The notes under the pieces were generated by a model that ran no database searches, had not been told where the DNA came from, and saw nothing but the letters and a program-made list of their open reading frames with translations. This document shows, one piece after another, positions 43,055-51,045 of a stretch of 52,700 nt of DNA (position 1 is the stretch's first letter; each line of letters opens with the position of its first letter). Made by a program: the position numbers and the translations under genes. The stretch spans positions 1 to 52,700 of the forward strand of contig JUEB01000005.1 of assembly GCA_000802095.1 (NCBI GenBank), written 5' to 3'. Source of the stretch: Peptococcaceae bacterium BICA1-7 (lineage in GTDB: Bacteria > Bacillota > Desulfotomaculia > Desulfotomaculales > Desulfocucumaceae).

Positions 43055-44371
43055 TTAGATCTTCATATTCCCTATATGGCTTAGCGCGCCGGCGGGAGAG
43101 TCATGACCATGGCCTGACCCGTAAATGGGCGGCGCGGTAAGTTCGGTATAGGCGGGTATGCCGTGCTCGTTAATATCCAGACCCTCAGCCTCTTCCTCGG
43201 GTGTAACCCTTACTCCCATTGTCTTTTTCAGTATTACAAAAACTATGAAAGTGGTGGCAAAGGCCCAGATGGAAACTGAAAATACACCCAGCGCCTGAAT
43301 ACCTAGCATTTTGAGTCCACCACCATACAAAAGCCCTCCCTTTTCGGCGAAAATACCCACTGCCAGAGCTCCCCAGGTGCCGTTGACCCCGTGCACAGCA
43401 ATAGCCCCCACCGGATCGTCCGCCTTAATTTTATCAAAGAAGCCCACCGCCAGTACTACCAGCACACCAGCAATGAGACCTATAATAACGGCAGACACAG
43501 GAGAAACGTAGGCGCACCCGGCGGTAATAGCGGCCAGCCCGGCCAGAGCTCCGTTTATGGCCATACTGGGGTCCGGCTTCCCCCACCTGATCATGGTAAA
43601 CAGCGCTCCCGAAGTGCCGCCGGCGGCGGCGGCAAGATTGGTGGTAAGCGCTATGCGGGCTATATTCATGTCCAGGCCGGAAAGTGAGCTGCCCGGATTG
43701 AAGCCGAACCACCCAAACCAGAGAATGAAGGTCCCCAGAAAGGCCAGGTGCATATTGTGGGCCGGCATTACGTTTATACTGCCATCCTCGCTGTATTTTC
43801 CCATTCTTGGGCCAAGCACTATAACTGCGGCCAGGGAACACCATCCGCCCACCGCGTGCACTGCTGCGGAGCCGGCGAAATCAAGCATGCCCATTTTAGC
43901 CAGCCAGCCATCAGCTCCCCATACCCAGTGGCCGGATACAGGATATATAATTCCGGTAACCAGTACAGTAAAAATCATATAGGTGGTAAATTTCATCCTT
44001 TCGGCCACGGCTCCTGAAACAATAGAGGCCACGGCCATAGCAAAGGCCGCCTGAAAAATATAATAGGCATAAAGAGGAATTCTCAATTGGACATGATCCA
44101 TACCTCCATCAAGGAAAAAACCGCTGGTTCCGAAAAGCCCCGCCCTGTCAAGTCCGAACATTATGGCAAAGCCTATGGCCCAGTAAGCAAGCATCCCCAG
44201 GCTGCAGTCGGTGAAAACCTTCATAACTATATTCAATGAGTTTTTTGCCCTGATAAAGCCGGCTTCCAAAAAGGCAAACCCGCCCTCCATAAAAAAGACA
44301 AGGGCAGCGCAGAGTAAAACCCATATTGTATCAATCCCTCTGGCAAGTTCCGAAATGCTGAACGAATCCAT
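43055..44371 (-). CDS. amtB: Ammonium transporter (Amt family)
   Basis: 438 aa, 11-12 helices. Twin histidines of the pore lie in GSAAVHAVGG and AVHGVNGTWG. FAFLEAGFIRAKNS and GWFGFNPGS are family marks. GGGGGAT precedes the ATG. It takes up ammonium and is normally gated by a PII protein, which is encoded just upstream on the same strand. The leader between them contains an ANTAR-like hairpin and terminator. Confidence 0.97.
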   Translation of the reverse strand: MDSFSISELARGIDTIWVLLCAALVFFMEGGFAFLEAGFIRAKNSLNIVMKVFTDCSLGMLAYWAIGFAIMFGLDRAGLFGTSGFFLDGGMDHVQLRIPLYAYYIFQAAFAMAVASIVSGAVAERMKFTTYMIFTVLVTGIIYPVSGHWVWGADGWLAKMGMLDFAGSAAVHAVGGWCSLAAVIVLGPRMGKYSEDGSINVMPAHNMHLAFLGTFILWFGWFGFNPGSSLSGLDMNIARIALTTNLAAAAGGTSGALFTMIRWGKPDPSMAINGALAGLAAITAGCAYVSPVSAVIIGLIAGVLVVLAVGFFDKIKADDPVGAIAVHGVNGTWGALAVGIFAEKGGLLYGGGLKMLGIQALGVFSVSIWAFATTFIVFVILKKTMGVRVTPEEEAEGLDINEHGIPAYTELTAPPIYGSGHGHDSPAGALSHIGNMKI

Positions 44372-44400
44372 ATTTTATCCCCCATATTCAATAAAATATA

Positions 44401-44460
44401 AAACGCCCCTAAGCCCTTCCGGGCGGGAGCGTCTTTGCTCAGTAAAATATTATTATTTTA
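44401..44460 (-). promoter_or_regulatory. Second ANTAR-like leader, between glnK and amtB
   Basis: Minus strand order: stem TAAAAT with hexaloop AATAAT (44460-44443), then 2 nt, then stem GAGC with hexaloop AAAGAC (44440-44427), then a terminator whose left arm ACGCTCCC starts within the second stem's right arm, with right arm GGGGCGT and TTTT. The second loop has the A1/G4 signature; the first has A1 but A at position 4. Confidence 0.6.
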
Positions 44461-44849: not shown

Positions 44850-44876
44850 GGCTACCCCTCCCCCGTTTCAGAATAA

Positions 44877-44946
44877 AAAAAGCCCTATACCGCAAAAGAG
44901 ACGGCATTAGGACCTTCGTTGGCCTTAAAGTACAACTCTGTACCTT
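44877..44946 (-). promoter_or_regulatory. ANTAR-type dual-hexaloop antiterminator and terminator before glnK
   Basis: Minus-strand RNA: P1 is AAGGUAC-AGAGUU-GUACUUU (44946-44927), a 7-bp stem with hexaloop AGAGUU. After AA, P2 is GGCC-AACGAA-GGUC (44924-44911). The terminator follows: GUCCUAAUGCCG pairs with CGGUAUAGGGC, then seven U residues. The right arm of P2 (GGUC) is shared with the left arm of the terminator, so the two exclude each other. Both loops have A at 1 and G at 4, the signature bound by ANTAR proteins such as EutV and NasR. Confidence 0.85.
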
Positions 44947-44966
44947 CAAATATGCTCATCTAAATA

Positions 44967-44995
44967 ATTATAATTTTATATCACCCGCCGGTCAA
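44967..44995 (-). promoter_or_regulatory. glnK-amtB promoter
   Basis: TTGACC (44995-44990), 17-nt spacer, TATAAT (44972-44967). Predicted start near 44960, about 14 nt before the first ANTAR-type hairpin. Confidence 0.82.
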
Positions 44996-45003
44996 TAATA
45001 AAC

Positions 45004-46131
45004 TTAACTCTTATAAATTCTGGGGACCCTTGCCGACAGAGTTGAGACAACCTCATAATTAATGGTCCCCATAAGACCGGCCACTTCCTCCACCGAAATA
45101 AACTCCTCTCCCTGCCTTCCGAAAAGAACAACCTCGTCACCGGGAGACACCCCCGGAATACCGGCCACATCAGCCATGCACTGGTCCATGCATACCCTGC
45201 CCACCACCGGAGCCCTTCTACCCCTTACCAGCGCCTGCCCCCTGGAAGACAGCAGCCTTGAAAAACCGTCCGCATACCCCACCGAAAGTGTGGCAATAAT
45301 AGTCTCCCTTTCAGTAACATAGGTACTCCCGTAGCTGACCGGGAATCCTGCCGGAACCCTTTTGACCTGGGCCACTCTTGTTTTCATGGACATAACTGGC
45401 CTGAGGCTTAATCGGCAGGCCTCCACCTCCTCAGAAGGATAAAGCCCGTACATAGAAATACCTGCCCTTACCAGGTTAAAGCAGCTAAGTGGATGGCCAA
45501 TTATAGCCGCGCTGTTAGCGGTGTGCACCAGAGGGAAAACTATTCCCTCCCGGCGCAGGTCCGCCAGCAGACCGGTAAATTTATCCAGCTGGGACAGGGT
45601 AAAGTCCTTGTCCCAGCTGTCTGCGCAGGCCAGATGGGTGAATATGCCCGACAGCCGAAGATGATCCTGCCCGGCGATTTCTTTTATCTCGTCAATGGAC
45701 GAGGCAGCCCCGGCCACTACCCCCAGCCTGCCCATGCCGGTATCCACCTTTATATGGACGGCCAGGCTCAGTCCGGACCGGCGGGCCTCCCGGTTGACCT
45801 CCCGGGCATAATCCGCTCCATAAACCGTTTGCTCCAGCATATGCGCGGCAGTATCCCGGATCTGCCCGGGGGGAGTATAGCCCAGCACCAGAATTGGCTC
45901 CTCTATCCCTGCCCGGCGAAGTTCCAGTCCCTCTGACGATCTTGCCACCGCCAGGCGGGCAGCACCGGCGGACAGGGCTGCCTTTGACACCTCCACGGCC
46001 CCGTGGCCGTAAGCATTGGCCTTGACCACAGCCATTATTCCGGTCTCTGGGGGAATAACCCTCCTTATTTCACTTATGTTATGGGAGAGTGCTCCCAGGT
46101 CTATTTCAGCCCATACCGGGAGTTCAATCAT
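45004..46131 (-). CDS. alr: Alanine racemase
   Basis: 375 aa PLP enzyme making D-alanine for peptidoglycan. [12 protein letters not shown] holds the PLP lysine (about 37); the C-terminal domain has [10 protein letters not shown] and [10 protein letters not shown] with the catalytic Tyr region. Start ATG 46131 has GAGG 8 nt upstream; the in-frame GTG 46140 is nearly on the site. The acpS-nnr-alr order recalls the Bacillus acpS region. Confidence 0.96.
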
Positions 46132-46165
46132 GATATGCACCTCTTATACGCTTATACTGATAACA

Positions 46166-46318
46166 TTCCCGGTCGGGAGTCAGAATTCAGAAGTCAGAAT
46201 TCAGAATGGTAAAAGCATTTCTTATATGCATAATTACTAGGCTTTGGGCTCTGCCGGCAGAGCCCTGCTGAAATATTCTGGGTTCTGTATTCTGACTCCT
46301 GTATTCCGACCGGGAAGC
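46166..46318. repeat. Inverted-repeat element between nnr and alr
   Basis: Left end CCCGGTCGGGAGTCAGAATT (46169) is matched in inverted orientation at 46280-46315 (…CTGACTCCTGTATTCCGACCGGG). Both ends are made of heptamers (CAGAATT/CAGAAGT). The centre holds a perfect 20-nt palindrome, GGGCTCTGCCGGCAGAGCCC, at about 46246-46265. No ORF. Confidence 0.78.
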
Positions 46319-48955: not shown

Positions 48956-49741
48956 TCAAAACCCCAGTATCTTCCTTAATTTTTTGGCCTGGGCCCTGCT
49001 TACGGGCACCTCACTGTTTTCCTTATCTTCAACCACCAGGTTGTAAGTGCCGTTAAAGAAAGGAACAATCTCCTTGACCTTGTGCAGATTAACCAGATAA
49101 CAGCGGTGGGTCCGGAAGAAAACCGAGGGATTCAGCCTGGCCTCCAACTCCTTTAGGGTGAACCTTGTAAAAAGCTTATCGGAAAAAGTTTTAATATAGA
49201 TGTAATCCTGCTCGGTGAAAGCGTAAAAAATATCCGACTCGGCCACCAAAACAGTTTTACCCTGCTTCTCAGCAGGAATCCTGTCTATTTTTATCTGCCC
49301 CTGCTGGGTGGGGGCAGTCCTCACATCGGCTTCCTGCTGGTCCAGGCCGGCTGAGGCATCAGCCCCGGAATACTCCTGTGAGATTCTGACAACCTTGTCT
49401 ATGGCTTTTTTAAGTCTCCCCGGCTCAACAGGCTTGAGCAGGTAGTCCACGGCATTTACCTCAAAGGCCTGAACGGCATGCTCGTCATAGGCGGTTACAA
49501 AAATAACGTGGGGCTGCCTGGGAAGTTCCTGTATAGCGGCCCCTAGCTCAAGTCCCGACATTCCCGGCATGGAGATATCAAGGAAAAGAACCTGGTAGTC
49601 CAGTGCCTTGATCAGGGCAAGAGCCTCCTGGGCACTGGTGGCCTCACCCACAATTTCAATATTCTCAAAACTACTGAGCGCAAACCTTAACTCCTGCCTG
49701 GCCGGGTATTCATCATCAACTATAAGAGCTTTTAATTTCAT
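48956..49741 (-). CDS. LytTR-family response regulator
   Basis: 261 aa. Receiver domain with ALIVDDEYPAR, phospho-acceptor Asp in LFLDISMPG (about 55), and VTAYDEHA. LytTR DNA-binding domain from about 165 (FYAFTEQDYIYIKTF, FFRTHRCYLVNL). It binds direct-repeat sites at target promoters. It starts 2 nt after the kinase stop, so one operon. Confidence 0.96.
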   Translation of the reverse strand: MKLKALIVDDEYPARQELRFALSSFENIEIVGEATSAQEALALIKALDYQVLFLDISMPGMSGLELGAAIQELPRQPHVIFVTAYDEHAVQAFEVNAVDYLLKPVEPGRLKKAIDKVVRISQEYSGADASAGLDQQEADVRTAPTQQGQIKIDRIPAEKQGKTVLVAESDIFYAFTEQDYIYIKTFSDKLFTRFTLKELEARLNPSVFFRTHRCYLVNLHKVKEIVPFFNGTYNLVVEDKENSEVPVSRAQAKKLRKILGF

Positions 49742-49743
49742 TT

Positions 49744-51045
49744 TTAGCCTTCCTCCCCGCCTGTTGGTTTACATATAAGGGGTATCCTTATAAAGATTGA
49801 CGTTCCCTCACCGGGAACACTGTCTATCTGCAGCCCATATTCCTCCCCAAACAGCCCTTTCAGCCTTTCATGAACATTGGACAGCCCCACCCCATTGCCG
49901 GACCCGTAGCCCGGTTTCAATATAAGGGGCATTTTTTCCGGAGGGATGCCCACACCATTGTCCTTTACTTCAAATATTATCTCCTCTTCCTCCTCAAGGT
50001 AGGCCCTTATCCAAACTGTCCCCTGTCCCTGTTTGGGAAGAACACCGTGTTTTATGGCGTTCTCTACCAGGGGCTGAATGGAAAGAACAGGCACCTGGTA
50101 ATCAAACAAATCCTGGTCAATATCCCTTATTATTTTGAGTTTATTCCTGAATCTGGCTTTCTCCAGTATCAGATAGGTATTCAGATATTCTATCTCTTCC
50201 TTGATTGAATAGAAGTGCCCGTGCCTTTTCAGGGCATATCTGAAAAAGGTGGCCAGGCGTATGAGAAGCCTCCTGGCAGTCTCGGGGTTGGTTCGGACAA
50301 ACATTATTATTGTATTCAGAGTATTAAAAAGAAAATGGGGATTGATCTGGGCCTGGAGGGCATCCAGCTCAGCCTTGGTGACCAGGCGCGCCTGCCTGTC
50401 CAGCTCGGCCAGTTCCATCTGCAGCCCCAGCATCTGAGCCACACCCTCGGCAAGCTTGATATCAGGATGGCTAATCTCACTTTGCTTTAGATGATATAGC
50501 TTAACAGTTCCCAAAACCTCCCCCTTGCACTTCAGCGGGGCTATAACAGCTGACTCCAGGGGGCAGTTTTCCACCGGGCAGATCAGGTTGTAGCGATTCT
50601 TTACCACCATCAGGTCACCTGTGTTTAATACTGCCCTGGTGGCATCCGTCATTATGGGCCCGCCGGGCTTGTGGTGGTCGGAGCCGGCCCCAACGTAGGC
50701 CAGCACCTTCTCTCTGTCTGTTATGGCCACCGCCGCGACATCGGCTATAGCCTTTATTATTTCTACTGTCTTTCCAGCGGTATCTTCGTTAAGCCCCCTG
50801 CGTAGAAAGGGAAGAGTTTCACTGGCTATTCTGAGAGTGGGATCCAGAGGGTGGTCCTCCAGAACACACATCCTGCCACCCTTTTGCAGGTATTTAATCA
50901 GATATAAAGTGGTTCCGCACCCGATGGCCAGCATCATCAGCCCTGCTGCCCACACGGGCAGCCCGGGGAAAAAGAGCAGTGAAACAGCCGCCAGATTTAA
51001 GGGCAGCCACCTGAGAGCAACATTTTTTATTACAAATATATCCAC
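49744..51045 (-). CDS. LytS/YpdA-type sensor histidine kinase
   Basis: 433 aa. Two N-terminal membrane helices (against five or more in full 5TMR-LYT kinases), a GAF domain (about 90-210), His_kinase domain with QAQINPHFLFNTLN (phospho-His) and an HATPase domain (VENAIKHGV, VKDNGVGIP, GNGVGLSNVHERL). GTG start 8-9 nt after GGGG. The short sensor suggests cytoplasmic sensing by the GAF domain. Partner: the LytTR regulator downstream. Confidence 0.94.
   Translation of the reverse strand: MDIFVIKNVALRWLPLNLAAVSLLFFPGLPVWAAGLMMLAIGCGTTLYLIKYLQKGGRMCVLEDHPLDPTLRIASETLPFLRRGLNEDTAGKTVEIIKAIADVAAVAITDREKVLAYVGAGSDHHKPGGPIMTDATRAVLNTGDLMVVKNRYNLICPVENCPLESAVIAPLKCKGEVLGTVKLYHLKQSEISHPDIKLAEGVAQMLGLQMELAELDRQARLVTKAELDALQAQINPHFLFNTLNTIIMFVRTNPETARRLLIRLATFFRYALKRHGHFYSIKEEIEYLNTYLILEKARFRNKLKIIRDIDQDLFDYQVPVLSIQPLVENAIKHGVLPKQGQGTVWIRAYLEEEEEIIFEVKDNGVGIPPEKMPLILKPGYGSGNGVGLSNVHERLKGLFGEEYGLQIDSVPGEGTSIFIRIPLICKPTGGEEG

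Follow-up and report, generated by a model that had tools for sequence, protein, structure and literature searches.

What decides whether transcription begun upstream of glnK, the gene of a P-II protein, continues into glnK and the ammonium transporter gene amtB? The question is raised by the minus-strand leader of glnK-amtB, found in the gap of 154 nt from alr to glnK within a window (the whole stretch of DNA that was analysed) of 52,700 nt. In our judgment this leader is very probably an ANTAR-type transcription attenuator, presumably antiterminated on nitrogen limitation by an ANTAR regulator that is encoded on contig C1. The features on which the argument turns are the following.

45004-46140, minus strand: alr, alanine racemase gene, co-directional with glnK; its stop, at 45004, lies 8 nt before the -35 box
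44990..44995, minus strand: -35 box TTGACC (sequence; TTGACC in congener G002, TTGATC in congener G001)
44967..44972, minus strand: -10 box TATAAT (sequence), 17-nt spacer from the -35 box; kept in both congeners
44927..44946, minus strand: ANTAR-type hairpin P1, AAGGUAC[AGAGUU]GUACUUU, 7 bp (sequence, structure scan, held-out model match at 44912-44944)
44939-44934, minus strand: P1 loop AGAGUU (sequence)
44911..44924, minus strand: ANTAR-type hairpin P2, GGCC[AACGAA]GGUC, 4 bp including one G.U (sequence, structure scan, held-out model)
44920-44915, minus strand: P2 loop AACGAA (sequence)
about 44875..44917, minus strand: intrinsic terminator and U-tract (folding dG -18.2 kcal/mol); GGUC of its left arm also belongs to P2
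44511..44849, minus strand: glnK, P-II protein, 112 aa, GTG start (PF00543, E 1e-29)
43055..44371, minus strand: amtB, ammonium transporter, 438 aa (PF00909, E 1.3e-124)

A preliminary description had listed a TTGACC-N17-TATAAT promoter and two hairpins 2 nt apart with hexaloops AGAGUU and AACGAA, and all of these are present on the minus strand; the spacing of 2 nt is that between full stems, and the linker is 5 nt when P1 is counted as 4 bp. In the sequence of this genome, position 1 is A and position 4 is G in both loops, again as described, and P1 and P2 are both closed by a C-G pair. The overlap of P2 with the left arm of the terminator was likewise borne out by structure prediction, in which the entire right arm of P2 sits within that left arm, and P2 and the terminator are predicted to be mutually exclusive. 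The dual hairpin alone folds at -10.5 kcal/mol, as against the -18.2 kcal/mol of the terminator. It counts against the hairpins as described that the minimum-energy fold pairs A1 of the first loop with U6, by which a tetraloop is drawn and not a hexaloop.

From this arrangement we infer the following course of control. Transcription would start just past the TATAAT box and, with no active ANTAR protein at hand, the nascent RNA would fold into the terminator and stop before glnK. One of the two ANTAR response regulators encoded on C1 would be activated, presumably by nitrogen limitation, and would then bind the loops of P1 and P2 and keep P2 closed. With P2 closed, its right arm would be withheld from the terminator and the polymerase could read into glnK-amtB.

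Chance would seldom produce such a leader. When the terminator-side arm was fixed and the upstream 52 nt were redrawn from their own dinucleotides, an A1/G4 dual hairpin (P1 of at least 5 bp, P2 of at least 4 bp) appeared in 2 of 100,000 leaders and a purine-1/G4 dual hairpin, at the same stem thresholds, in 10 of 100,000, the thresholds having been set after the site was seen and one base being doubled at the join. Across the window and loci (278,668 bases), 79 dual hairpins with an overlapping terminator were found when any loop letters were admitted; 31 of them carry A1 and G4 in both loops, and 52 carry a purine at position 1 and G4 in both. No A1G4/A1G4 structure and two purine-1/G4 structures in all came from ten Markov versions of these bases. 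Since the scanned loci were picked for P-II or ANTAR genes, many real structures are to be expected if the motif goes with such genes. The structure scans omit the duplicates L001, L002, and L005, and the counts over 278,668 bases and of loop letters also omit L065 (a duplicate) and L066 (the C15 look-alike mentioned below). In total folding energy the leader does not stand out (z -0.26; plus strand, z 0.57), and overall folding energy was rejected as evidence because these values are uninformative.

An ANTAR protein had been expected elsewhere in the genome, no ANTAR gene having been seen in the window. The genome (G000; 4.75 Mb in 33 contigs) indeed holds two ANTAR genes, both on contig C1, and no ANTAR gene was found on contig C5, to which the window belongs.

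L003:15490-16071: ANTAR1, immediately followed by a glutamine synthetase gene and preceded by a gene that we take to be gltD-like
L004:6885-7478: ANTAR2, between a sensor-kinase-like gene upstream, presumably for a histidine kinase, and another glutamine synthetase gene

Both proteins have a receiver-ANTAR architecture in domain searches, and the PDB entries that match them best are 1s8n and 6wsh, which we take to be Rv1626 and EutV, respectively. As we read the alignments, the phospho-aspartate of the receiver is present in both, as are the residues matching EutV R142, K143, K147, and M172; at the position of EutV Y164, ANTAR1 has F and ANTAR2 has Y. In place of the second acidic receiver residue (again by our own reading), S is found in ANTAR1 and A in ANTAR2, and the receiver Thr/Ser seems, from the alignment, to be absent in ANTAR2. 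Control by phosphorylation is therefore not assured for either protein.

The same kind of site stands before other nitrogen genes of this genome. R1, a model of 38 sites including that of the window, found six places in the genome at E <= 0.02, each before nitrogen genes, and four of the six (the window site and three others) were themselves training rows.

C1:140448: site before the 1569-aa frame of glutamate synthase (gltB, assigned by position), E <= 0.02
C1:134193: site before ANTAR1, E <= 0.02
C1:133424: site in the gap from ANTAR1 to glnA, E <= 0.02
C1:131664: site before the second glnA, E <= 0.02
C15:54151: site before amtB2-glnK2, the second amtB-glnK operon, E <= 0.02
window glnK site: before glnK-amtB, E 0.0019, not independent since it is a training row

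The next R1 place (E 0.11) lies inside a gene that we presume to be RND-transporter-like. The glnK leader is thus one site of a nitrogen-assimilation regulon that comprises gltB, one ANTAR gene, the glnA genes, and the second amtB-glnK operon. A scan of the ANTAR clusters L003 and L004 returned no site when a 4-bp P2 was demanded and three when 3-bp stems were admitted. The leader of glnA3, which adjoins ANTAR2 (L004:6626-6884, minus strand), carries P2 as CAGGGC[AATGGA]GTCCTG with a terminator-like stretch, and no recognisable P1 was found in it. A P1 look-alike on C15, with one mismatch, was dropped, as it lies in what appears by eye to be a coding stretch with neither P2 nor a U-tract close by.

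Two further models were built without rows from the genus's glnK-amtB operon. R2 comprises 30 of the 38 rows of alignment A3, with L016 as the only P-II locus to supply a row, and its seed is biased to GGC/GCC P2 stems, unlike P2 of the glnK leader. R3 comprises 37 rows: the window and L006 were left out, L007 supplied no row, and L071 was added; four rows come from this genome (L003 twice, L004, L071), and the four corresponding own-genome matches are such by construction. Five sites misaligned by MAFFT (L019:1450, L020, L023, L024:1447, and L033) were left out of A3, as was L025, which is near-identical to L020. The paired cells of the seed rows are 100% by construction, the rows having been selected for pairing, so that only the covariation counts are informative; six of the eight stem pairs change on both sides.

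Within the window, R2 ranked the glnK leader first of 21 (10.3 bits, E 0.46) and the glnK-amtB gap second; R3 ranked the leader first of 6 (20.1 bits, E 0.0014) and the gap second (14.8 bits, E 0.031). The leader was not listed genome-wide, neither with R2 at E <= 1 nor with R3 at E <= 10, although places of 13 bits are in the R3 list, and we suppose that it was dropped there by the fast first look of the search. At about 20 bits the leader is not significant genome-wide by score alone, and the place inside the RND-transporter-like gene scores higher (20.9 bits with R3). Rather than by its score, the case is carried by the position before glnK, the overlap with the terminator, and recurrence.

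This modest score invites the thought that the site was recognised by an ANTAR protein in ancestors and is now weak or unused, with glnK left to basal read-through. The leader does score below the gltB and ANTAR1 sites (20.1 vs 43.4 and 38.2 bits with R3, the latter two being training rows), P1 before amtB is degenerate, and the P2 loops of the congeners have drifted: one reads GACGAA and the other is a 5-nt GATGA (by eye), so that A1 of this loop is kept in neither. The preliminary description had looked to A1 and G4 in both loops of relatives, and this holds for P1 and fails for P2. Nevertheless, the promoter, A1 and G4 of the P1 loop, and the terminator are all kept in the window genome and both congeners, and changes in the P1 stem preserve pairing (by eye), the fourth pair from the loop being G-C or A-U and the fifth G.U or G-C in two of the three genomes. 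In each congener the glnK leader is likewise matched by R3 (E 0.0005 and 0.0035). We consider decay of the site very improbable, and an ANTAR-type attenuator still in use remains our preferred reading.

The loss of A1 from P2 in the congeners does not sink this reading, as position 1 varies across the order and EutV is reported to contact G4 and to make no specific contact to A1. Among 51 distinct structures in which G4 was required in both loops and position 1 was left free (a count that also omits L067-L109), 36 have A and 13 have G at position 1 of the P1 loop (49/51 purine), and 38 have A and 12 have G at that of the P2 loop (50/51 purine). Each stem is closed by C-G in 47 of the 51. Loop position 1 across the order is therefore A or G, and not strictly A. 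In the EutV-RNA structure, as described in the accessible text (PMC8934654), G4 stacks on Tyr164 and no specific contact is made to A1. According to the portions available of two other papers, NasR preferred A1 and G4 in SELEX (PMC7496416), and changing the A at position 1 of eutP to U lowered induction, G not being the change tested (PMC3369931). The consensus in the supplement of Ramesh et al. 2012 is, according to the accessible text, written in IUPAC codes that include R (PMC3369931), and we therefore make no claim that the purine rule is unpublished.

A second attenuator, degenerate in form, sits in the 139-nt gap between glnK and amtB.

44427..44460, minus strand: degenerate P1 and P2 together (structure scan; R3 match at 44428-44454)
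44460-44443, minus strand: its P1, UAAAAU[AAUAAU]AUUUUA, with A and not G at loop position 4
44440-44427, minus strand: its P2, GAGC[AAAGAC]GCUC (sequence)
44391..44430, minus strand: its terminator, overlapping its P2 (folding dG -16.4)

The same gap of both congeners retains the terminator and a P2 with loop AAAGAC or AATGAC, and no canonical P1 was seen there (both by eye); R3 matches there are weaker than those in the glnK leaders (E 0.12 and 0.027). Sites with a degenerate or missing P1, before amtB and glnA3, are either decaying or can work with one hairpin. The latter would fit a proposal drawn from the crystal structure, that the two hairpins are not bound simultaneously by an ANTAR dimer. 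It is possible, if doubtful when taken as a whole, that a relaxed loop code (purine at position 1, G4) is combined with attenuators made of P2 alone (amtB, glnA3) and with two attenuators in series, by which amtB would need ANTAR action twice.

Recurrence in relatives was followed with both held-out models. Across 28 other P-II loci and the window, R2 gave 17 matches at E <= 0.1, of which 10 lie within about 150 nt upstream of a P-II gene on the same strand. R3 matches at E <= 0.1, on either strand and anywhere in the locus, were found in 20 of 30 P-II loci; six of the 20 are sources of R3 training rows, and the match in L011 is a partial one at the edge. A full dual site also stands directly 3' of the P-II gene in L009, L010, L019, and L024. 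In 80 named P-II loci from many phyla, a partly dependent set in that L118 appears to be another stretch of the contig behind training rows, R3 gave 14 matches at E <= 0.3 in 8 loci, not all of them P-II leaders. All 8 loci are titled Bacillota or a genus thereof (Desulfofundulus, Pelotomaculum, Desulfovirgula, and others); Bacillota account for 14 of the 80 by their titles, read by eye, and no match at E <= 0.3 was obtained in the other 66.

Sites and ANTAR genes also occur together. Among 60 related genomes, an ANTAR gene was found in 55 and a site at E <= 0.05 likewise in 55; 53 have both, three neither, two sites only (G020 and G043), and two an ANTAR gene only (G004 and G033), a co-occurrence with a Fisher p of 0.003 when genomes are treated as independent of kinship. 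The two are physically linked in 9 of the 60 genomes, where no more than 2.5 kb separates an ANTAR gene from a P-II gene (by eye). G020, a genome that is 96% complete, has five ANTAR-type sites at E <= 0.05 with no ANTAR gene found in it, which reflects an assembly gap or a loss.

It might be argued that the terminator merely ends alr transcripts and that the two hairpins are incidental, given that alr is co-directional and ends so close to the -35 box, and that the leader is not unusual in folding energy. Such an origin is hardly likely, as alr and the terminator are separated by a promoter that both congeners keep, along with the P1 hairpin and the terminator itself, and 10 of the 17 R2 matches noted above stand directly upstream of P-II genes. 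Although attenuation by itself is no proof of ANTAR action and the ANTAR reading of the leader is a prediction, we give very little credence to control of the terminator by a riboswitch, a T-box, a leader peptide, or another antiterminator protein, since no Rfam family reaches its gathering score anywhere in the window, the sole Rfam match near the leader at E <= 10 is to a snoRNA family (E 3.7), and the loops and stems fit the ANTAR pattern common to the genome's other nitrogen leaders.

The ANTAR-type attenuator that we favour has close precedents. Ramesh et al. 2012 defined the ANTAR RNA, and the accessible text reports the mechanism as shown in E. faecalis (PMC3369931). Sites before P-II, ammonium-transporter, glutamate-synthase, and glutamine-synthase genes were already published there, and regulons are given for Desulfotomaculum reducens and D. 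acetoxidans, the latter with at least 13 sites in six units (PMC3369931). Like the Desulfotomaculum attenuators as described in that text, the glnK leader has dual hexaloops, A1 and G4, and a P2 that overlaps an intrinsic terminator; unlike that description, position 1 is here a purine and not strictly A, and a second, degenerate site lies between glnK and amtB. The leader or its like may be included in tables S1/S2 or figure S2 of the same work.

The leader resembles EutV and the eut leaders of Enterococcus faecalis in the receiver-ANTAR protein, the two hexaloop hairpins, and the exclusion between P2 and the terminator, so far as that system is covered in the accessible sources. It differs in that the signal there is ethanolamine, received via EutW, and in that Tyr164 of EutV is replaced in ANTAR1. 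The eut linkers measure 5-12 nt in the text available, whereas the full stems of the glnK leader are closer together, and a 3-nt linker in eutP drastically cut induction (PMC3369931). The nearest precedent for signal and direction is NitR, an ANTAR protein of Clostridium saccharobutylicum that induces GS/GOGAT genes by antitermination on nitrogen limitation; its targets in the passage available are GS/GOGAT and not glnK-amtB (PMC6316151). NasR/nasF of Klebsiella and NasT of Bradyrhizobium share with the glnK leader the placement before nitrogen genes, two hairpins, a C:G closing pair, and a preference for A1 and G4 (PMC7496416, accessible portion), but both answer to nitrate. Deletion of nasT in Bradyrhizobium lowers glnK2 about twofold (PMC6759348).

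No experimental study of an ANTAR-type glnK-amtB leader was found in the literature searched, to the extent that its texts were accessible, most subscription papers lying outside it. ANTAR control of P-II and ammonium-transporter genes is thus already known, and the glnK leader adds a well-supported further example. It supports RNA-level ANTAR control of the whole nitrogen set (glutamate synthase, glutamine synthetase, P-II, ammonium transporter) in this group, and points to two refinements of the ANTAR code, namely that loop position 1 takes a purine and that an attenuator may have a single intact hairpin.

Two minor observations concern the remainder of the window. Between alr and the next gene, positions 46178-46310 carry AGAATTC-rich repeats like the text found by eye beside ANTAR2 and glnA3 on contig C1, and this repeated text is perhaps a small dispersed element. 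Farther on, positions 48956-51045 (minus strand) encode a response regulator and sensor kinase pair, which we presume to resemble LytT/LytS.
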